In this document: positions 5,445 to 27,014 of the stretch, piece after piece
How the letters are laid out: every line of letters starts with the position of its first letter
How positions within the stretch are numbered: the stretch's first letter is position 1
Source: a virus
Virus record (IMG/VR): IMGVR_UViG_3300030103_004582
Location: 70,845 to 99,870 of that record
Length of the DNA stretch: 29,026 nt
Reading direction: 5' to 3' (one strand)
The notes under the pieces: generated by a model
The model's input: only the letters and a program-made list of their open reading frames with translations
Told to the model about the DNA's origin: nothing
Databases searched by the model: none
Translations under genes and position numbers: made by a program

Positions 5445-6485
5445 ATGAAAAAAGTTTTAATAACAGGAATTAATGGACAAGATGGTTCTTATTTGGCTGA
5501 ATTTTTAATAGAAAAAAAATATGAGGTTTGGGGTACAGTTAAAAGAAACTCTGTTTCAGAAACTCAATCTACTAGAATAGAGCATTTAAGAGAATTAAAT
5601 AAAATTAATTTAGAATATGCGGATTTAACAGATATGGCTTCTTTAGTGAGGGTTTTACAAAAAGTACAACCAGATGAAATATATAATTTAGCTGCACAGT
5701 CACATGTTAGGATTAGTTTCGATCAACCAATATATACTGCGAATGCAACAGGTTTAGGAACACTTAACTTATTAGAAGCAATACGAATGGTTTCACCACA
5801 ATCTAAGATGTATCAAGCATCCTCTTCAGAAATGTTTGGTAATAATATAGATATAGATGGTTATCAGAGGGAAACTACACCATTGAGCCCAGTATCACCT
5901 TATGGTTGTGCTAAAGTATTTTCTTATAATATATGTAGAAACTATAGGAATTCTTATAATATGAAAATATGGAATGGTATTTTATTTAACCATGAGTCGC
6001 CTAGAAGAGGGACTAATTTTGTAACCAACAAAGTGGTTAAAGCGGCAGTTAAAATCAAATTAGGGTTACAAAAAGAATTACGTTTAGGTAATTTAGATGC
6101 AACTAGAGATTGGGGACACGCGAAAGATTATGTTGAGGCTATGTGGTTAATGTTACAAGACGATAAACCAGAGGATTATGTTTGTGCTACAGGCGTATCT
6201 CATTCGGTAAGAGATTTATGTGAGTACACATTTAAATCACTAAATTTAAATTATGAAGATTATGTTAAAGTAGATGAAAAACATAAAAGACCTGAAGAAT
6301 TAAGAAACTTAAAAGGTGATTCAACAAAGATTAAAAACAAATTAGGGTGGAATCCTAAATATACGTTTGAGTCTATGATTGATGAAATGATTAAATATTG
6401 GTTAGATTATTATTATAACAAAAAACCTTATTTAAATAATAACTGGATAGTAAATAATGAAAAAGTAGAAAATTTAGATTTATGA
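5445..6485 (+). CDS. gmd: GDP-mannose 4,6-dehydratase
   Basis: Converts GDP-D-mannose to GDP-4-keto-6-deoxymannose, the first step toward GDP-L-fucose. It is a short-chain dehydrogenase-type protein: the NADP-binding loop TGINGQDG (7-14), NLAAQSHVRISFDQP, the catalytic SSSEMFG (S126-E129) and the Tyr/Lys pair in SPYGCAKVF (Y153, K157), followed by FNHESPRRGTNFVTNKV and RDWGHAKDYVEAMW, both strongly characteristic of GMD. Length 346 matches the family (about 340-370). The stop overlaps the start of fcl, the next enzyme of the pathway, so they are coupled. GDP-mannose itself would have to come from the host or from genes outside the window. Confidence 0.95.
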   Translation: MKKVLITGINGQDGSYLAEFLIEKKYEVWGTVKRNSVSETQSTRIEHLRELNKINLEYADLTDMASLVRVLQKVQPDEIYNLAAQSHVRISFDQPIYTANATGLGTLNLLEAIRMVSPQSKMYQASSSEMFGNNIDIDGYQRETTPLSPVSPYGCAKVFSYNICRNYRNSYNMKIWNGILFNHESPRRGTNFVTNKVVKAAVKIKLGLQKELRLGNLDATRDWGHAKDYVEAMWLMLQDDKPEDYVCATGVSHSVRDLCEYTFKSLNLNYEDYVKVDEKHKRPEELRNLKGDSTKIKNKLGWNPKYTFESMIDEMIKYWLDYYYNKKPYLNNNWIVNNEKVENLDL

Positions 6486-7432
6486 GTAAAAAAATTTTAG
6501 TAACGGGTGGTAATGGGTTAGTTGGTTCTAACTTTAAAGGTAAAAAAAACTATGTAACTTGGGGTAGAGATCATTGTGATTTACGTAATAAATATTCAGT
6601 TGAGAAAAGTATGAGTGAAGAGATTTTTGATGGTGTAATTCATGCTGCAGCTAAAGTAGGTGGTTTAGGTGGTAATATGAATTTTAAAGGTGAGTTTTTC
6701 TATGAAAATATAATGATTAATACTAATGTTATTGAAACTGCGAGAAAAACTCGTGTTGAAAACTTAGTTTGTTTCTTATCAACCTGTGTGTTCCCAAATG
6801 ATGTAGAATACCCATTAACGGAAAAAAATATACATATGGGTCCACCACATTTTAGTAATGATGCTTATGCATATGCCAAAAGAATGGCAGACATTCAAAT
6901 AAGAGCGTATAGAGAACAATATGGTTTAAATTATAAATCAGTCATACCTACTAACATATATGGAATAAACGATAATTTCGATATAGAAAATGGACATGTA
7001 GTACCTTCTTTAATCCATAAATGTTACATCGCAAGAGAAACTAATACTCCCTTAACTATTTGGGGTAGTGGAAAACCTTTAAGAGAATTTATATATAATA
7101 AAGATGTTGCTAAACTTACTGAATGGGTATTACATAATTATAACGAAGATGAACCAATAATTTTATCCACTTCTGAAGAAATATCAATAAAGGAAGTGGT
7201 TGATATGATTATAGAAATAATGAATTTTAAAGGTGAAGTTAAATGGGATATTAATAAACCAGATGGACAGTACAGAAAACCTTCGGATAATAGTAAAATA
7301 AAACATTATTTACCTAATTTTAAATTCACCCCAATTTATAAAGGTTTAAGTGAAACTATAAGTTGGTTTGAGACTAATTATGACAAAATTAGAGGAACAA
7401 AAAATCAATCAATAGTTACATCTCAACAATAA
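6482..7432 (+). CDS. fcl: GDP-L-fucose synthase (epimerase/reductase)
   Basis: Turns the product of GMD into GDP-L-fucose by 3,5-epimerisation and NADPH-dependent 4-reduction. Visible motifs are VTGGNGLVG (7-15), AAAKVGGLGGNM, the active-site LSTCVFP with its Cys, and the YxxxK pair in AYAYAKRMAD (Y129, K133), then PTNIYGINDNFD and NGHVVPSLI, whose His matches the second acid/base residue of the family. Length 316 is normal (about 310-320). It overlaps gmd by 4 bp. Together they give this phage its own route from GDP-mannose to GDP-fucose, presumably to feed one or more of the neighbouring transferases. Confidence 0.94.
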   Translation: MSKKILVTGGNGLVGSNFKGKKNYVTWGRDHCDLRNKYSVEKSMSEEIFDGVIHAAAKVGGLGGNMNFKGEFFYENIMINTNVIETARKTRVENLVCFLSTCVFPNDVEYPLTEKNIHMGPPHFSNDAYAYAKRMADIQIRAYREQYGLNYKSVIPTNIYGINDNFDIENGHVVPSLIHKCYIARETNTPLTIWGSGKPLREFIYNKDVAKLTEWVLHNYNEDEPIILSTSEEISIKEVVDMIIEIMNFKGEVKWDINKPDGQYRKPSDNSKIKHYLPNFKFTPIYKGLSETISWFETNYDKIRGTKNQSIVTSQQ

Positions 7433-17737: not shown

Positions 17738-19480
17738 TTATCTTAATAAGTTAACATCAAATGTTACAACTCCATCAATTGTCAACGTTGCGTAGAAACG
17801 GTTATTAACCATTTTCTTAGCGTATCTAGTCATGATACCCTTAGTTGGTGCAAAGTTGAATGGGTTTTGTAACGTAGGAGTCAATTGTAATGGTACGTAA
17901 GGTGCATAAATGTACCCAGTGTCCAATAATGACTTTCCTTTGTGTCCAACAATGATTGAGTTAGCTGGTGCGTAAGGATCTCTATATACAGTGTATCTTC
18001 CTCCTAATGAACCAATCTTCTCAATACCCATATTGTACTGATCTTGCTCTGGTGCTGCGTTAGATACGTGGAAGTATTCTAAATCATCAAATATCGCAGA
18101 AGCTTCAGAAGAAACTACGATAAAGTTAGCACCACCTCTTAGAGTTGATTTATGAATTTGTGCAGATAATTGGTTAATTCTAGTGATTAACGTCTGATTC
18201 CACTCTTTCTGAGTGTATGCGTTAAATCCACCACCATTATTAGCTCTTTTCCATCCGTTGTAATCCCATCTTAATGTCCAAGCTGCACCAGATCTTAAAT
18301 CTCTAAGGATTTCCCTGTCGATTTCAGCTGCTACTTGCTCAGATAATAAAGCCGTTAATTCAGCTTCAGCATCAATGTTATGGAATGCACTAACGTCTTG
18401 TGCTAATTCTGGAGACCAAGTTGCTCTTAATTTTCTTTCAGTTACCGAAACAACTACTTCATCAAGTTCGAAAGAAACTTCTCCCATTTCAGTTGCAAAT
18501 TCTAAAGTTGCATATTGCATCCAAGATGCAGTAATTGTAGGATTAGTTCCTGTTACTGCTCCGATATAACCATCGAATGTACCTGCATTACAACTAACAC
18601 ACGCTGGGTGAGATAAGTCTGCAGTTAACATTAAACATCCTTGTGGATCACAGATATCATCATAATTAACGATACCTTTACCGTATACTTGTGCAGTTAA
18701 GTTAAATGGAATTGAATCACCAGCAGTGATAATAACTTCACCATCACCGTCTACGATATCAACATCAGCAACAATTCTTAATGAAGATAAGAAAGATTCT
18801 GTATCCATTTCGTTTCCGTCAGGTCCAGTTAATCTTCCAGCTCCAGCAGATGTAAATCCTGATACACACATTGTAAGATTTCTAACTGATCCATCAGCAG
18901 CAGCTGGTTGATCGTCAAATGCAGTAACAACAGTTTCACCGTTTGCACTTACAATAACACCATAAGCGGTAGATTCAAAAATTGTAGCAGTACCTTTAGA
19001 TGCATCAAACATACCATCATTATAGAATACATCATATAATGATTTTTGTAAGAATTCTGAAACGGCATTTCCACTACAAGAACTAAATACACATTCTGGT
19101 AAAGAACCGTTTTCAGCATTACCATTTAAAGGATTGTGATTTCTTCCAGTTGTTTTTGGTACAAAGTAGAATAATTTTCCAATTGGCATGTTCATCGCCT
19201 GTACCGATACGATATCGTTAGCCAATAATTTTGAGAATACCCTTCTTACGATAGGGAAAACTACAGTTTCGAAAGAACCAGACGATTGAGCATCTGTTGC
19301 TTCTGTCAATAAAGCTGAAGCTTGGTTTTCGTATAACTGAGCGATGTTCTCTTTTACGTGACCTTTTAAACCTTCTAAGAATCCTAAAGAATCCCATTTT
19401 CCGATGGTTTTAGATCTAATTTGCTTCAAGTGTTCAAGTCCGATATTTCCAACTTCACCTGAATTTAATAAATGTCCCAT
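17738..19480 (-). CDS. gp23: Major capsid protein, gp23-like
   Basis: Forms the hexamers of the head shell. The conserved gp23 block FPIVRRVFSKLLANDIVSVQ (residues 75-94) leads into the HK97-fold body. Before it, LLTE|A (cut after E60) matches the L/I-x-E rule of the T4 prohead protease and stands near where T4 gp23 is cut (after residue 65), so residues 1-60 are likely a removed delta region. A C-terminal block near 525-575 (VPLQLTPTLQNPFNF, GIMTRYAKKM) is also typical. Length 580 compares with 521 in T4. Codons are visibly less AT-biased than in neighbours, as expected for a very highly expressed gene. The leader is A-rich with no Shine-Dalgarno. Confidence 0.93.
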   Translation of the reverse strand: MGHLLNSGEVGNIGLEHLKQIRSKTIGKWDSLGFLEGLKGHVKENIAQLYENQASALLTEATDAQSSGSFETVVFPIVRRVFSKLLANDIVSVQAMNMPIGKLFYFVPKTTGRNHNPLNGNAENGSLPECVFSSCSGNAVSEFLQKSLYDVFYNDGMFDASKGTATIFESTAYGVIVSANGETVVTAFDDQPAAADGSVRNLTMCVSGFTSAGAGRLTGPDGNEMDTESFLSSLRIVADVDIVDGDGEVIITAGDSIPFNLTAQVYGKGIVNYDDICDPQGCLMLTADLSHPACVSCNAGTFDGYIGAVTGTNPTITASWMQYATLEFATEMGEVSFELDEVVVSVTERKLRATWSPELAQDVSAFHNIDAEAELTALLSEQVAAEIDREILRDLRSGAAWTLRWDYNGWKRANNGGGFNAYTQKEWNQTLITRINQLSAQIHKSTLRGGANFIVVSSEASAIFDDLEYFHVSNAAPEQDQYNMGIEKIGSLGGRYTVYRDPYAPANSIIVGHKGKSLLDTGYIYAPYVPLQLTPTLQNPFNFAPTKGIMTRYAKKMVNNRFYATLTIDGVVTFDVNLLR

Positions 19481-19516: not shown

Positions 19517-21019
19517 TTATGATAATTTTCTCATCAAATCTTTAATCGCAGTTATTTGTGGATCTACATAAGCAGTAGATTCATTCAAATCCGATTTAGA
19601 AGACTTAACAGTTTTATTAACTTTATTCTCTACAGATTCTGTAATTGGTGACTTAGAATCTAATTCACTTTTTACTGACTTGTAGATAGATTTTGATTCT
19701 TTGATACTTTCTGCATTATCAAATCTTTTTAAGATTTCCATCTTTTCTGATTTGGTTGTAGAATGTTCAGTGAATAATCTATTTACGTATGCTAAATTTG
19801 TGTTGAATAAAGCAACTTCGTTTAACTTATTCTTGAATACTTTAAGTGCTCCTTTATACTCTTCGTTTTTGGATTTTAACTCTTTGTATTCCTTCATAAT
19901 TTTTGATTCCGATACTTTTTGTACATTTTTAGGTGTTCTTCTTTTTCTAGATTCTGATACACCACCGTAAGGACTTGCTTGATCTGACCCAGCTTTGGCA
20001 CCACTATATCTTTGGTAACCAGTTGATTGGTGTCTTTTAAGTTTGTCTTCTTCGATTGCTTCTTCTTCGTCTAAATCAACGATTTCTTCGGTTTCATCCA
20101 TATAGTCTCTATGACTTCTAGACTCATCGCCTTTATTTCCGCCATATTCACCTTCTTTCATATAGTCTTCACCTTCTTCCATATAGTCTTCACCTTCTTC
20201 CATATAGTCTCTGTGACTTCTAGACTCATCGCCTTTATTTCCGCCATATTCACCTTCTTCCATATAGTCTCTGTGACTTCTAGATTCGTCTCCTTTATTG
20301 CCGCCATATTTACCTTCTTCCATGTAATCTCTACGACTTTTAGATTCGTCTCCTTTATTGCCTCCATAAGGTTGTTCTTCAGAAAGTTCGATTTCGTACA
20401 TTACTTCTTCGTCAATAGGATCGTGACCTTCATATTTTTTACCACATCCTGCTTCCTCATTCATACATCCTTCCTCTTCGTCAAGACTATCGTATGATTC
20501 TTCATAATGTTCGTCACCTTCTTTGATGTAGTATTCTGCACCGGTTTCGTTATCTGTTAAGTGGATTCCGTCAGCGTCTTTAACAACTTCAACTTCGTCT
20601 TCATCGCTCATTTTCTTAAATACTGCGATTACTTCTTCGTCTGATGCACCAGTTAAATCTAATTCTTCCTCATCACCCATATCTAATTCTGCAGGTAATT
20701 CAGCAACATCTAATTCAACTTCTTCACCACCGTCTCCCGCCAAAGCGTCAAGATCGACATCTAAATCCATTAATTCTGACTCTTCTGAGTCATCTCCAGC
20801 TTCTGCTGGCATTTCTTCCATTTCTTCATCGGACCCTTCCACATCGATTTCTAATTCTTCTTCGTCTTCTTGTTCATTTAGAGACGACTCAACGATGTTC
20901 TCAATTTCTTGTTTCATATGTGAAGCAAGCATTTCTTTCGTATTGGCTTTTAAGGCATCCTCTAAAGACTTCGCTTCTAACAAAGCCTCTTCGATGATTG
21001 ATTTTCTTTTTGTAGCCAT
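19517..21019 (-). CDS. gp22: Prohead core scaffold protein, gp22-like, with acidic repeats
   Basis: The inner scaffold on which the capsid assembles, cut up by gp21 afterwards. The best family match is the C-terminal third (about 381-444): GALKVFKNKLNEVALFNTNL, then LFTEHSTTKSEKMEILKRFD and IKESKSIYKSV, with the helical pattern of T4-like gp22. The N-terminal 200 residues are extremely acidic (runs such as EDEEELEIDVEGSDEEMEEM). Residues about 217-308 are tandem repeats of YGGNKGDESRSHRDYMEEGE with extra 7-residue units. It is 500 residues against 269 in T4; the acidic region and repeats account for the gain. L-x-E sites suited to gp21 are frequent. The gene lies between protease and capsid genes, in T4 order. 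Confidence 0.85.
   Translation of the reverse strand: MATKRKSIIEEALLEAKSLEDALKANTKEMLASHMKQEIENIVESSLNEQEDEEELEIDVEGSDEEMEEMPAEAGDDSEESELMDLDVDLDALAGDGGEEVELDVAELPAELDMGDEEELDLTGASDEEVIAVFKKMSDEDEVEVVKDADGIHLTDNETGAEYYIKEGDEHYEESYDSLDEEEGCMNEEAGCGKKYEGHDPIDEEVMYEIELSEEQPYGGNKGDESKSRRDYMEEGKYGGNKGDESRSHRDYMEEGEYGGNKGDESRSHRDYMEEGEDYMEEGEDYMKEGEYGGNKGDESRSHRDYMDETEEIVDLDEEEAIEEDKLKRHQSTGYQRYSGAKAGSDQASPYGGVSESRKRRTPKNVQKVSESKIMKEYKELKSKNEEYKGALKVFKNKLNEVALFNTNLAYVNRLFTEHSTTKSEKMEILKRFDNAESIKESKSIYKSVKSELDSKSPITESVENKVNKTVKSSKSDLNESTAYVDPQITAIKDLMRKLS
20098..20370 (-). repeat. In-frame 60-bp tandem repeat with nested 21-bp units
   Basis: Units of 60 bp lie at 20098-20157, 20200-20259, 20260-20319 and, diverged, from 20320 to about 20370. 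Two 21-bp units (20158-20178, 20179-20199) repeat only the DYMEEGE part between the first two. All are multiples of three, so copy number can change without a frameshift. Adjacent units are near-identical in DNA, consistent with recent duplication. Confidence 0.9.
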
Positions 21020-21133: not shown

Positions 21134-21823
21134 TTAATCTGACAAAAAATTATCTAAAGAATCAATTAATAAATCTTTATCTTTATTTTCTTTAGATTCG
21201 GACATTTGTTGTTCTTTGGAAGGTGATTCATTATATATCCAAGATCCTGGTGTTGATGGTGAAGTAACTACATCCCAACATATTAATTCGAAGTCATCTT
21301 GTACAATGTTTTTACCATCTTCTTTTTTTAATGAACCTACACCTCTAGATGATACACCTATCTTTAAACCTTTTCTTAAAAGGTTAGCAACTTGATCTCC
21401 TTCACATGATATAATACCTTGTGTAACAAATCCTGGTGACATAATGATTTCTAATTTACCCATTAGCACATTACCTTCCCACCATAGTTCAGTTACGTTA
21501 TGAGAAATTCTACTAATAGCAACAATTGAAGAATCTGGATGGTCTGCCTCACCCATAGCCCTTTTTTCTTCAATAAGTTTCATATAGTTTTCAGATTCTT
21601 TTTTAAGTATCTTTTCAGGATATACTCTACCATTTCTATTCTCCACACCATATTTTTGCATTACTGCATAAACAACTAAAGGATCTTCGACTATTTGTCC
21701 ACCTTTAGTTAGTTTATTTATTTCATTAATGAAGTGTCTATTATCTTTAGGAGAGATGTATCCCGCATCATATTCTACTAAGATACCTTTTTTATTTAAC
21801 TCATTGTTTTTTAAAATTTCCAT
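21134..21823 (-). CDS. gp21: Prohead core protease, gp21-like
   Basis: Serine protease that cleaves scaffold and capsid proteins at L/I-x-E sites during head maturation. Characteristic blocks are YGVENRNGRVYP (58-69), GEADHPDS with the catalytic His (H95), KIGVSSRGVGSL with the nucleophilic Ser (S158 or S159) and FELICWDVVTSPSTPG with an Asp (D184) that may complete the triad. These place it in the T4-type prohead protease group (MEROPS S77/S80). Length 229 is close to T4 gp21 (212). The C-terminal ~30 residues are charged and may be removed by self-cleavage. It lies directly upstream of its substrates gp22 and gp23. Confidence 0.92.
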   Translation of the reverse strand: MEILKNNELNKKGILVEYDAGYISPKDNRHFINEINKLTKGGQIVEDPLVVYAVMQKYGVENRNGRVYPEKILKKESENYMKLIEEKRAMGEADHPDSSIVAISRISHNVTELWWEGNVLMGKLEIIMSPGFVTQGIISCEGDQVANLLRKGLKIGVSSRGVGSLKKEDGKNIVQDDFELICWDVVTSPSTPGSWIYNESPSKEQQMSESKENKDKDLLIDSLDNFLSD

Positions 21824-23215: not shown

Positions 23216-25168
23216 TTACTTTTCTTCGTTTTCAATAATACTATCTATTTCTTTTGACATTTCTTCTATCTTAGAGTTAATTGTATTAACTTCATCGTCT
23301 AAATTTTCTACATTAAAAACTTTTTCATTTTCATCTATACTTTCCATTAATCTTTTGAAGTACATATTTTGATATTTTTTAACTTTACTATTTAACACTT
23401 CTCTTTGTTTTTCTTCCATTAAAAGATTTTCTTTTTTGTCTATAGATTCGACTGCTGCACCCGCTTCAGCTGCCGCTGCTTCTCCACCTGCATCAGTAGC
23501 CGCAGCATCATCCATACCACCAGCTAAGTCTGCACCAAAGTCAGATCCACCTCCGAAGTCATCACCACCAGTGTCTCCACCCATATCACCTCCTGCTGCG
23601 TCACCTCCAGATTCTCCTTCAGCACCCATTGGATCACCATATAATGTATCAACTCTATCAAAGATACCTGTTTTCTTAATTACTGTAGACGTTTGTTCCA
23701 TTTCTGCACTAGCCGCTTTTTCCATTCTTTGTTGTTCTAAGTCATTGCGTATTTCTTCTTCAGACATACCTAATATATCTCTTTTAGCTCTAGTCATAGA
23801 ATAAGCACCAAACCCATTACCTGCGTCTGACACTGCGTCTTTATATAAGGTAACTTTTAATTGGGTTTGTTCTATCTTCAACATCTCTGCTTGTGTAGAT
23901 GGGTTATTAAGTGTTAATGTAAAATTTTCTAATTCATCTTCTAAACCTAAAATATAAAGGTGTATGATTGCAATTTTATTTAATTCTTGTATAATTGCCT
24001 GTTGTACTCTATTAATTGTCCTAGAGAATCTAATATCTTGTAATGCTAAATTTTTACCCTCACCTGTTACTTCTTCAAAACCTAAAAATGGTTTAGGTAC
24101 TCTTAATGCAGTAAATAATTTCTTTTGAAGGAATTGTATATCAGCAATTTCAGATAGGTTAGTAGCACCAGGAAGAGTATCAATAGGGCTAGGTGCATTT
24201 TGATCCCTTACAGGTACAAAATAATCTTGATCTTGTGCCATTTGATTGTAACGTGTATCTATTTGTCCTGTTTGTTGGTCAATTACAGGACTTCTTTTAA
24301 AGTTATCTGCGATTTTGTTCACATATGCTGGTACATCTTTCTCATCGATGTTACCAACAAATATTTTAAATATTCTTCTTTCAGGTGCTCTAGTTACTCT
24401 ATATATTAACATAGCATCTTCGGACAAAAGTAATTGTTTCCAAATTCTTCTAGCTTTTTCTAAAATAGAAGTCCCATATGGTAATCTTCTATCATCACCT
24501 AATAATCTAAAGTGTGCCACTTGCCACGCATTAAACTCCATATCTTTTTGTCCCCACACAAATTTAACTGGATTAAATTTATCTTGTGTAGATAAGTTAG
24601 AATTTTCACCAAATCCATCATTTTCTTTTCTCGCAATTTCAATATTAGGTAATTGTTTTACACTTTGGACTCCATCTTCACTATCGATAGACAAATATAA
24701 AAAATTATCACCATATTTACATGTGTTTCTCACCCACATTGGTAAGTTAGTGTGAATATCTAGTCTATTAAAAAATAAGTCTTGTAATATTCTTCTTACT
24801 CTTTTACTTTCTGAAAATATATTAAGTATTTTACCATCACTATTAGGTGTTGTAGATTCCTCCATAAAAATATCCAACGCCGCAGCAATTTCTGGAAAGA
24901 ATTCCATCCCCTCAAAATCTGCATAAGATGCCAATCTTGTTGTTTCATAATATATTGAGTGTTGGTAAATCTCATTGTCTACCTTTTTCCATTGATTCGC
25001 TAGATATGCGTCTTGTTGTTTTTGAAGTAATTCATAATCATATTCTTCTTTTGATTGAGTTTTTAACAACTCTTTATCGTTTATTGAATATCTTGATTTA
25101 CTTTCCGCTTGTTTTCTTTCAGGACCAAATAAGTCACTTAACTGTTGAAATATTGTTTTTCTTGCCAT
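23216..25168 (-). CDS. gp20: Portal protein, gp20-like, with Gly/Ala/Asp linker and extra tail
   Basis: Forms the dodecameric ring at the head vertex through which DNA enters. The T4-like portal core spans about residues 60-500: ADFEGMEFFPEIAAALDIFM, VAHFRLLGDDRRLPYGTS and the signature YRVTRAPERRIFKIFVGNI (about 256-274), followed by the clip and crown parts and FLGFEEVTGEGKNLALQDIR. From about 513 to 573 comes a linker made almost only of Gly, Ala, Asp and Ser, then a charged helical tail (about 574-650). Length 650 exceeds T4 gp20 (524) by this addition. It directly follows gp17 with no tail sheath or tube genes between, unlike T4. Confidence 0.93.
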   Translation of the reverse strand: MARKTIFQQLSDLFGPERKQAESKSRYSINDKELLKTQSKEEYDYELLQKQQDAYLANQWKKVDNEIYQHSIYYETTRLASYADFEGMEFFPEIAAALDIFMEESTTPNSDGKILNIFSESKRVRRILQDLFFNRLDIHTNLPMWVRNTCKYGDNFLYLSIDSEDGVQSVKQLPNIEIARKENDGFGENSNLSTQDKFNPVKFVWGQKDMEFNAWQVAHFRLLGDDRRLPYGTSILEKARRIWKQLLLSEDAMLIYRVTRAPERRIFKIFVGNIDEKDVPAYVNKIADNFKRSPVIDQQTGQIDTRYNQMAQDQDYFVPVRDQNAPSPIDTLPGATNLSEIADIQFLQKKLFTALRVPKPFLGFEEVTGEGKNLALQDIRFSRTINRVQQAIIQELNKIAIIHLYILGLEDELENFTLTLNNPSTQAEMLKIEQTQLKVTLYKDAVSDAGNGFGAYSMTRAKRDILGMSEEEIRNDLEQQRMEKAASAEMEQTSTVIKKTGIFDRVDTLYGDPMGAEGESGGDAAGGDMGGDTGGDDFGGGSDFGADLAGGMDDAAATDAGGEAAAAEAGAAVESIDKKENLLMEEKQREVLNSKVKKYQNMYFKRLMESIDENEKVFNVENLDDEVNTINSKIEEMSKEIDSIIENEEK

Positions 25169-25220: not shown

Positions 25221-27014
25221 TTACTTTATACCAAATAACCAATTATATTCTCCATTATCGTTATTTCCATTATTTTGTTTAGGTTCATATGTAGGGGTAT
25301 TACTATAAAATGGATTTACATGTGTTTGTTTAGGTGTAATCTTATTAGTATTATTACTAACTGTAGTCCAACTATCTAACATTGCTCTAGTTTGATTTTC
25401 TATCTGTTTTAATTTTTTAAACGTAGTTTGTACCACAAATATTGGCATTGCTAATGCCATAATTATATCATCATGATATCCATCCATATGATCTGGTCTA
25501 CCATTTCTATAGACAAAAGTTTTTAATTCTGAAATTAATCTTACTGATCGTATAATAGTTTTATTCTCCCTAATATGTTCTTCTAAATCACTAACCATTT
25601 GTAATCTACTACTACCCACATTAAAACCAGGTACTTTATCCCCTTGTTTATATAAGGTTTTAGCATATTTTTCACTTAATTTTCTACTTTTAGGATCATC
25701 GTAGTGTAAATGTGTGTATCCCATTTCTAATAATTTCATAACTGTAGAAACTCCCATACCACCTGTAATATCTACTACAGTATATGCATTATATAAATTA
25801 CCATATTTATAAACTATTTCTGCCAACAAATCTGGAGGTAATTTATATTTAAATTCTGCAACTTGTTCTAAGTTTTCAAAATCTAAAATAACAATAGTAG
25901 AACTATCTTTACCATCACCTCTAGAAACATCCACACCCATAATATATTTATGACCTTCTTCTGGTTCTTTCCATATCCACATAGATTTTTCCATCTCTGC
26001 CTTATATTTAGGTTCTTGTACATTATTTTGTTCTTGAAATTCTATGTATTCATCATCAATAACATTACCACCAGAGGATACAAATGATACATCTAATTCT
26101 TGTGCAATTTGTTTTTTATCCCCATTCATGTCTCTACACATTTCTTCATACCATGGAGAAGAACCTTTCCAACCATCACTAACCATTATATTATAGTCTT
26201 TAATATCTATACTATTAGTTTCGTAAGTTTTACCACTATATTCCCACCTTAATGTTTCTCTACCTACTGTCTCACAAACAATTTCCTCATTTTCACCTCT
26301 TAACCACCTTAAACCTCTATTGTATCTAATATCTTCATGCCACCTCATTTCAATTATATTGAAGTTATTATCCCCTTGTTTTGCACCATCATAAGTTTTA
26401 TAATATAATGCATCTTGACCATTAGGTGTTGAAATAAGTGTTACCTTACCACCCGTACCTAACGATGTTAAAGCGGCACCGAATACTTCTGCACCATTAT
26501 CGATAAACGCTGCCTCATCCATAATTAAAAATGTCGGTGTATAACCCCTAAGTGCATCTTTTGATGTTGCTAATGCTTTTACTTCACATTGAGTGTCTTT
26601 AGTTTTGATATGTCCTTTGGCTTCAATAGATAAATAAGAATCCCCTTCATCAATACCCCATACCCATGATGGTATCTGATCTAAGAAATCTTTTATTTTT
26701 TTTAAAAACTCTTGTGCTAATGTTTGTTTATTGGCTAATACTAGTACTTTCCAAGGATTATTAGGATCACCAAACGCAATTTTTGCTGCAATATATGCTG
26801 CAGTAGTTGTAGATACACCTGCCTGTCTTGGTTTAGTTACAATATTACGATTATGTTTTTCATATGATTTAATTATTTCTTTCTGTTTATGAAATAATTT
26901 AAAAGGAACAAATCCTTTTTGTGTTAAATCATATGTTTTAAGAAACGTCTCTATTGCGTATATAGGATCACCCAAACACTTCGCATATACCTTTAATTGT
27001 TGTCCTCTATCCAT
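25221..27014 (-). CDS. gp17: Terminase large subunit, gp17-like
   Basis: ATP-driven motor and nuclease that packages DNA. The ATPase half has the P-loop TKPRQAGVSTTT (60-71), in which the usual GK pair is absent and K61 stands at the front of the loop, as in many terminases; Walker B FLIMDEAAF with D166 and catalytic E167; and coupling motif VTLISTPNG (191-199). The nuclease half has GVDVSRGDGKDSS (D362), YTVVDITGGMG (D415) and YHDDIIMALAM, the three acid positions of the RNase H fold. Length 597 matches T4 gp17 (610). The C-terminus is Asn/Thr/Pro-rich and probably flexible. It has its own candidate late promoter. Confidence 0.95.
   Translation of the reverse strand: MDRGQQLKVYAKCLGDPIYAIETFLKTYDLTQKGFVPFKLFHKQKEIIKSYEKHNRNIVTKPRQAGVSTTTAAYIAAKIAFGDPNNPWKVLVLANKQTLAQEFLKKIKDFLDQIPSWVWGIDEGDSYLSIEAKGHIKTKDTQCEVKALATSKDALRGYTPTFLIMDEAAFIDNGAEVFGAALTSLGTGGKVTLISTPNGQDALYYKTYDGAKQGDNNFNIIEMRWHEDIRYNRGLRWLRGENEEIVCETVGRETLRWEYSGKTYETNSIDIKDYNIMVSDGWKGSSPWYEEMCRDMNGDKKQIAQELDVSFVSSGGNVIDDEYIEFQEQNNVQEPKYKAEMEKSMWIWKEPEEGHKYIMGVDVSRGDGKDSSTIVILDFENLEQVAEFKYKLPPDLLAEIVYKYGNLYNAYTVVDITGGMGVSTVMKLLEMGYTHLHYDDPKSRKLSEKYAKTLYKQGDKVPGFNVGSSRLQMVSDLEEHIRENKTIIRSVRLISELKTFVYRNGRPDHMDGYHDDIIMALAMPIFVVQTTFKKLKQIENQTRAMLDSWTTVSNNTNKITPKQTHVNPFYSNTPTYEPKQNNGNNDNGEYNWLFGIK

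Follow-up and report, generated by a model that had tools for sequence, protein, structure and literature searches.

A 29,026-nucleotide stretch of viral DNA, positions 70,845 to 99,870 of IMG/VR record IMGVR_UViG_3300030103_004582 and hereafter called the window, carries a tandem repeat array within the scaffold gene of a T4-type head module. The scaffold (prohead core) gene lies at 19517-21019, and all features of the head module described below are on the minus strand. It is an open reading frame for an acidic protein of 500 amino acids in the position of T4 gene 22. We judge it rather probable, with considerable doubt remaining, that the repeats are one allele of an exchangeable region of the scaffold and that this region is cut by the prohead protease at the edges of its cassettes. 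On this view, the disordered middle of the T4-type protein holds a hypervariable series of cassettes.

The scaffold protein is composed of three parts. A conserved N-terminal part (residues 1-210, 20390-21019) and a conserved C-terminal helical part (residues 369-500, 19520-19915) were delimited with a protein alignment (A1) and an AlphaFold2 model. Between them lies a hypervariable middle (residues 211-368, 19916-20389), which is predicted to be disordered and was delimited by the predicted local distance difference test score (pLDDT) of the model and by DNA identity to the relative L007. DNA identity between the window and L007 is 95% upstream, 95% in the N-terminal part, 57% in the middle and 98% in the C-terminal part. 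For L009, the corresponding values are 85%, 89%, 49% and 95%, with 91% in the capsid gene; for L002, they are 97%, 97%, 94% and 100%. The C-terminal part is 97-100% identical between the window and each of L002, L003 and L007. Beyond the number of units, the whole middle is replaced by unrelated sequence in close relatives. The variation takes the form of unrelated blocks together with insertions and deletions, and among 40 pairs with capsid proteins that are 90-95% identical, the relative score of the middles spans 0.08-0.93. A target of a diversity-generating retroelement, which was also considered, would be marked by A-directed changes together with a reverse transcriptase and a template repeat.

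The relatives are viral contigs from IMG/VR. A scan with the scaffold yielded 48 loci (54 stretches matched, 49 relatives), and a scan with the capsid protein contributed the 80 best loci among at least 599. Both conserved ends are held in one frame by 118 of the 128 loci, and the other 10 were dropped; removal of 20 of the 118 as identical left 98 distinct genes. A middle is definable in 94 of these (four without a middle anchor were dropped) and is 52-207 amino acids long, with a median of 93, next to medians of 213 for the N-terminal and 135 for the C-terminal part. Counts refer to 82 representatives, with capsid identity below 95% where known and with middles that are not identical, after 12 near-duplicates among the 94 had been dropped. 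Internal repeats beyond those of shuffled sequences occur in 32 of the 82 representative middles (1.6 expected), and the other 50 have no significant internal repeat. The repeat score is at least 12 in 15 of the 82; some of these are acidic runs, and three are of the window's array type. Other types of unit include copies of DMEEGY in L006 and periods of 43, 32 and 49 amino acids in L009, L012 and L005, respectively. The closely related L101, L106 and L108 have a glycine-rich, amphipathic-looking insert, GGGSDVEG...GLGEIIDGLKKLMKMGGAVGQRAKNALMGLSKN, in the scaffold middle, which we take to resemble a membrane-active peptide.

The array of the window (20087-20368) is composed of four 60-bp units of 20 codons and two 21-bp units of 7 codons, all in frame. 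In the direction of translation, these are unit 1, YGGNKGDESKSRRDYMEEGK (20309-20368); unit 2, YGGNKGDESRSHRDYMEEGE (20249-20308); unit 3, again YGGNKGDESRSHRDYMEEGE (20189-20248); the short units DYMEEGE (20168-20188) and DYMKEGE (20147-20167); and unit 4, YGGNKGDESRSHRDYMDETE (20087-20146). Tandem Repeats Finder detects a 60-bp period with 3.0 copies and 90% matches at 20189-20368 and a 21-bp period with 3.0 copies and 97% matches at 20147-20210. These results confirm the 60-bp and 21-bp repeats that an initial annotation, made from the sequence alone, had placed in a scaffold gene, and gene order and charge agree with the scaffold position and the acidic context that it gave. The same annotation held the units to be near-identical in DNA, which they are not. 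Over the six pairs of the four 60-bp units, synonymous divergence (pS) is 0.51 (0.19-0.76) and nonsynonymous divergence (pN) is 0.06, a ratio of 0.12. High pS together with low pN indicates that most of the array is old and constrained at the protein level.

In-frame change of copy number, also predicted in the initial annotation, is seen between relatives, but the rapid tuning that near-identical DNA would have allowed is not supported. The window, L002 and L008 each have four units but differ in the inserts between them; L003 and L004, which are identical, each have five. Unit number is equal in assembly pairs with identical or near-identical genes (L003 and L004; L002 and L008). No synonymous difference separates the last two units of L003, which points to a recent in-frame duplication. 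Units 1 and 2 of the window are 1-3 of 60 bases away from their counterparts in L002 and L003 and 7 away from each other, and are therefore older than these phages. Units 3 and 4 are at least as far from their counterparts as from each other, so this end of the array has turned over. A tblastn search of the window's record for further copies of the units, of the basic cassette or of the N-terminus of the scaffold returned only weak matches elsewhere, one of them to a collagen-like GDKGDKGD stretch.

A basic cassette stands behind the acidic part of the middle. In the window, it is KLKRHQSTGYQRYSGAKAGSDQASPYGGVSE (19952-20044), of class A; it was recognized by an acid-to-basic break at residue 325 and by its class and tree, and its downstream end was set by eye. 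Altogether, 89 of the 98 genes were sorted into 20 classes of basic cassette, although the classes and their start points were defined by motifs written after the sequences had been viewed, which counts against the proposal. Among the nine unsorted genes, L006 and L060 resemble class A by eye. The distribution of the classes was compared with trees, all of them quick searches with support from the Shimodaira-Hasegawa-like approximate likelihood ratio test (SH-aLRT) only. On a capsid-protein tree of 73 rows (16 of the 89 classed genes were dropped for want of a capsid protein longer than 450 amino acids), the classes need 32 changes, with a minimum of 18 and a shuffled mean of 54.8. For nine classes, at least three gains or losses are forced by the well-supported branches of this tree alone. 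A tree of the scaffold flanks with 89 rows has several long branches and is weaker than the capsid-protein tree; the classes need 34 changes on it, with a minimum of 19 and 65.3 after shuffling. It supersedes an earlier flank tree made with a strict motif and 28 rows only.

Cassettes of class L are 96.4-97.3% identical in DNA over 111 nucleotides among L005, L010 and L013, and their surroundings are 73-77% identical upstream, 77-89% in the N-terminal parts and 88-93% in the C-terminal parts. The cassettes of class C in L009 and L012 are 94.9% identical over 78 nucleotides, with 75% upstream, 76% in the N-terminal part and 88% in the C-terminal part. Measured against the rate of the C-terminal part, the binomial chance of such similarity is 0.002 for L005 and L010, 0.0005 for L005 and L013 and 0.035 for L009 and L012, so that the last pair is weak taken alone. 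These comparisons indicate that basic cassettes move between lineages. Exchange may proceed by homologous recombination in the conserved flanks. The comparisons also show that units are recurrently duplicated in frame and that the middle changes as whole blocks between close relatives.

The proposed cutting of the cassettes is suggested by the placement of protease motifs. T4 gp21 is reported to cut after L/I-X-E and to cut gp22 into several fragments, and the T4 capsid propeptide is given as 65 residues (PMC9026906). In the major capsid protein of the window, a candidate propeptide cut after residue 60 is found at L-T-E (19301-19309), based on the motif in relatives, where the 40 commonest strings at the propeptide edge, 70 of the 88 aligned rows by our own count, read [LIM]-x-E. 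In the scaffold, I-E-E at the start of the basic cassette (20048-20056) is a candidate site by motif and by the edge test described below, and V-S-E before the C-terminal helix (19907-19915) is a candidate by motif. The form [ILMV].E[STA] is present before this helix in 51 of the 82 representatives and absent in 31.

Across the middles, [LIM]-x-E is seen 325 times and expected 165.5 times from shuffling; this and the following motif counts include related sequences and repeats, are not independent and hence are not probabilities. Counts of the controls [LIM]-x-D (91 vs 83.1) and [LIM]-x-x-E (168 vs 163.3) agree with expectation, and those of [LIM]-E (202 vs 166.7) and E-[LIM] (207 vs 165.8) exceed it slightly. 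In the C-terminal part, [LIM]-x-E is also above expectation (456 vs 200.6). The edge test covers 65 genes; of the 82 representatives, 14 are outside the tested classes and three have no core match. In all 65, [ILMV]-x-E lies no more than six residues before the basic cassette, compared with 21% of random six-residue windows. With the edge set by charge alone, the motif is found in 72 of 82 genes, with 25.0 expected at random and 48.5 at equally acidic positions. At this edge, the controls [ILMV]-x-D (12 vs 14.4) and [ILMV]-x-x-E (18 vs 30.5) are not raised, and E-x-[ILMV] (51 vs 33.1) and [ILMV]-E (43 vs 35.2) are. We infer that the cassette edges are cut by the neighboring gp21-type protease.

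Cutting at the [ILMV]-x-E bounds would take place during head maturation. As judged from motif placement, it would release short amphoteric peptides (YGGNKGDESRSHRDYMEE units) and a basic peptide of approximately 30-40 residues. Construction of the prohead core presumably falls to the conserved ends, that is, the N-terminal helix and the C-terminal helical domain. Among possible roles of the pieces, or of the uncut region, interaction inside the core or with the DNA in the head is the likeliest.

A function of the pieces finds some support in the divergence between units. The ratio pN/pS between units is 0.12 in L001, 0.10 in L002, 0.09 in L008 and 0.08 in L003, values that are not independent since these loci share one array. 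Units in several other genes also appear constrained, with pS 0.77 and pN 0 in L128, 0.35 and 0 in L096, 0.18 and 0.009 in L012, and 0.83 and 0.15 in LR756508. The substitution pattern thus shows that the sequence of the window-type unit is under selection, and therefore the pieces, or the region left uncut, probably do something specific. For other cassettes, the evidence for selection is mixed.

Several observations weigh against the favored reading. In the N-terminal part, [LIM]-x-E falls below expectation (624 vs 708.3). The residue following E is not specific, since [LIMV].E with a charged residue in that place also exceeds expectation (190 vs 104.1). At the charge-set edge, enrichment relative to equally acidic places is only 1.5-fold. 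The units of the window end in Y-M-E-E-G, which has M rather than L or I at the third residue before the presumed cut (P3) and G directly after it (P1'); among the most frequent capsid strings, M occurs at P3 once and G at P1' never. The change from L or I of the T4 motif to M at P3 is a conservative one. The specificity of the protease is itself deduced from T4 and from the capsid-protein site. Most core fragments of T4 are reported to exit the head, and being cut is not the same as being kept (PMC9026906). Constraint is uneven, too. The units of L005 are less constrained (pS 0.165, pN 0.058), the two units of Flavobacterium phage vB_FspM_immuto show no sign of constraint (pS 0.046, pN 0.043), and the units of L009 have no synonymous difference. 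Local alignments between middles have a median pN/pS of 0.61 (923 informative pairs). Within 10 of the 13 cassette classes, pN/pS is 0.31-0.78 for the 24 acidic codons ahead of the basic cassette, 0.23-0.64 for the first 24 basic codons and 0.12-0.46 for the C-terminal part; the values for the basic codons are biased low because the defining motif lies inside the stretch. In seven of these 10 classes, the basic cassettes are less constrained than the C-terminal part.

Much of this would also be expected if the middle were a loosely constrained, disordered acidic spacer that is reshuffled by tandem duplication and recombination, with nearly any sequence tolerated as long as its charge is right, and if its protease sites served only the shredding and exit of the core. 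Predicted disorder at 171-362, the spread in length (52-207 amino acids), the median pN/pS over the 923 pairs, the weak constraint on the acidic parts, the lack of any sign of it in the immuto units, and the departure of most T4 core fragments are all consistent with such a spacer. The ratios of 0.08-0.12 between window-type units and the near-zero pN in L128, L096 and L012 are not, and the recurrence of similar cassettes in separate lineages is unexpected under free drift. We regard the spacer as a serious alternative, with a probability of somewhat less than one third.

An extension of the favored reading goes further than cutting and exchange and is, in our estimate, unlikely, though worth stating. 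The scaffold could act as a polyprotein through which a peptide payload of changeable content is loaded into the head; part of this payload would stay with the DNA and enter the host, where different alleles would counter different host functions. The T4 prohead is reported to have roughly 580 copies of gp22 (PMC9958956), and with as many scaffold copies there would be approximately 2,300 copies of the 20-residue unit of the window per head. If this were true, an arms race would account for the large number of alleles, for their exchange and for the increase of dose in tandem. Scaffolds are usually viewed as disposable building aids; bounded and exchanged cassettes that differ between close relatives suggest that one protein could serve both to build the head and to deliver peptides.

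Two further explanations are clearly improbable, both to the same degree. One is that the middle is a self/non-self code that pairs with nothing but itself or a core or capsid partner that matches it, and so prevents mixed heads when two phages share a cell. Many alleles that differ block-wise at one place in an assembly protein would fit such a code, but the capsid proteins of L003 and L009 are 93.7% identical and their middles are largely unrelated (relative score 0.19). The other, proposed in the initial annotation, is that repeat copy number sets the mass or charge of the scaffold and hence head volume. It agrees with the presence of four or five units in relatives, and T4 gene 22 is listed among genes whose interplay can lengthen heads (PMC2993671). 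It gains no support from length, however: middle length and record length are uncorrelated (rho 0.26, p 0.62), in a weak test on six records above 150 kb, a small sample of possibly incomplete records. The 50 middles without a significant internal repeat also stand against it.

That the repeat is an artefact of assembly, by collapse or expansion, is very improbable. Some contigs do end in the region, and six of 29 right-hand ends precede the C-terminal helix; the rate of ends is equally high 1.5-2 kb downstream. The same array is present in a second record, the 127-kb contig L001, with an identical gene and one mismatch in 17,500 bases, although the two records may or may not stem from different samples. 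In addition, the five-unit gene is the same in L003 and L004, and the arrangement of units is the same in L002 and L008.

The nearest known counterpart is T4 gp22, which is likewise helical and is encoded in the same gene order of protease, scaffold and capsid protein. It differs in that it has 269 amino acids and, by eye, neither a comparable repeat-bearing middle nor a basic cassette. The product gp22* is counted among the T4 internal head proteins (PMC7697877) and would be a precedent for scaffold pieces that stay in the head. The internal proteins Ip1-Ip3 (IPI-III) are described as sharing only an N-terminal leader, as being injected and as blocking different GmrSD enzymes (PMC12373910). 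They resemble the region described here as variable, protease-processed head content of related phages. Unlike it, they are small separate genes with a capsid-targeting leader peptide; the variable pieces described here form part of the scaffold gene itself. Internal scaffolding proteins are also named among the flexible genes of T4-like phages (PMC3037559, citing Comeau et al. 2007), a statement made there of whole genes and not of cassettes within one scaffold gene.

Immuto, a cultured phage, has its scaffold in the same gene place. The protein contains two tandem units of approximately 60 amino acids bounded by VNE|G, LEE|G and EE|S; by eye, the unit sequence is unrelated to that of the window, and the copies are recent. 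The immuto scaffold (L130:3659-4900) is annotated as a 'DNA polymerase phi-like protein', perhaps due to its acidity. The scaffolds of immuto, LR756508 and the Microcystis phage Mel-JY01 are related to the window's in the C-terminal domain (hhalign E 2.2e-14 over 85 columns). In the gp22 of cyanophages and of Caulobacter phage Cr30, there is a variable N-terminal segment that is absent from the gp22 of T4 and of Vibrio phage PC-Liy1. It contains repeats in Synechococcus phage ACG-2014f and Cr30 (L149, L150), namely VVTKGAK.. and LDQDNGQ. In the nine gp22 sequences compared by eye, the segment lies N-terminally, unlike the middle of the window's protein. Proteins of Borg elements have rapidly changing in-frame tandem repeats that form disordered regions, and these proteins are not scaffolds. 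None of the papers listed in searches of the literature, subscription papers and preprints aside, describes exchangeable cassettes within a T4-type scaffold.

The scaffold belongs to a head module of the T4 superfamily. It includes the large terminase (25221-27014), the portal (23216-25168; Pfam Portal_T4), two unknown genes between portal and protease, the gp21-type prohead protease (21134-21823; Pfam Peptidase_S77, E 1.6e-25; PHROG 207), the scaffold and the gp23-type major capsid protein (17738-19480; Pfam Gp23, E 2.2e-72). The gene order of the window is that of T4 genes 20, 67, 68, 21, 22 and 23. Because this order parallels that of T4, with protease, scaffold and capsid protein in succession, the acidic gene occupies the place of the scaffold. 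Its product has the further traits of a gp22-type protein, namely acidity and a helical C-terminal part, with net charges of -64 in the N-terminal part, -18 in the middle and +6 in the C-terminal part. The scaffold protein of the window has no Pfam or PHROG match up to E 0.1. Homology to gp22 of T4 and three cyanophages is not significant by hhalign (E 0.015, probability 3; 60 of the 64 rows of alignment A1 used). A search of 64 scaffolds against PHROGs matched nine families with one member each, and none of the matches came from the window protein. A Pfam scan of ten scaffolds of other phages, with E up to 1, returned ANAPC5 in the immuto unit (23.7 bits vs a curated cut-off of 23; 28 residues), which was taken as a chance helix match; the other matches, including NET2A in L096 (E 3.1e-05), are below the curated cut-off. 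A fold search of the structural model against viral models gave two matches with E below 0.001, both uncharacterized phage proteins. This scaffold protein is thus missed by sequence libraries, and the capsid gene of the group has at least 599 matches in IMG/VR.

The AlphaFold2 model was built with 64 sequences and has a mean pLDDT of 56.4. Residues 8-47 form a helix and residues 121-170 a small alpha/beta element, and helices are modeled with confidence between 369 and 455. The pLDDT is below 50 at 171-362 and over most of 52-117, an acidic low-confidence stretch in the N-terminal part. The cassettes thus lie within predicted disorder, flanked by ordered parts on both sides. Just ahead of the hypervariable middle, many relatives have, by eye, a motif of the CxxCG type (CSECGSG, CEGCGS), a possible metal or disulfide site. 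Its counterpart in the window is GCMNEEAGCGK (20441-20470), and L058 carries the motif twice. The portal has a C-terminal tail (23440-23635) that is rich in Gly, Asp and Ala and of low complexity, and DNA matches to several relatives break off nearby.

Five relatives of the capsid gene were found in a genome collection. These are three assemblies named as Bacteroidota, one Mycoplasmatota assembly and one single-cell record of Prochlorococcus. The phage contig of L005 (also L142) lies within the last of these, Prochlorococcus sp. AG-409-L21, and the three relatives in Bacteroidota-named assemblies are more distant. In a study of marine viruses of Bacteroidetes, Far-T4-like phages are connected with these bacteria (PMC7198788). 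The collagen-like GDKGDKGD repeats in another part of the window's record (L135:7078-7548) possibly belong to a tail fiber. Two adjacent genes at 5445-7432 of the window resemble the sugar-nucleotide enzymes GDP-mannose dehydratase and GDP-fucose synthase, and genes beside this pair resemble glycosyltransferases.

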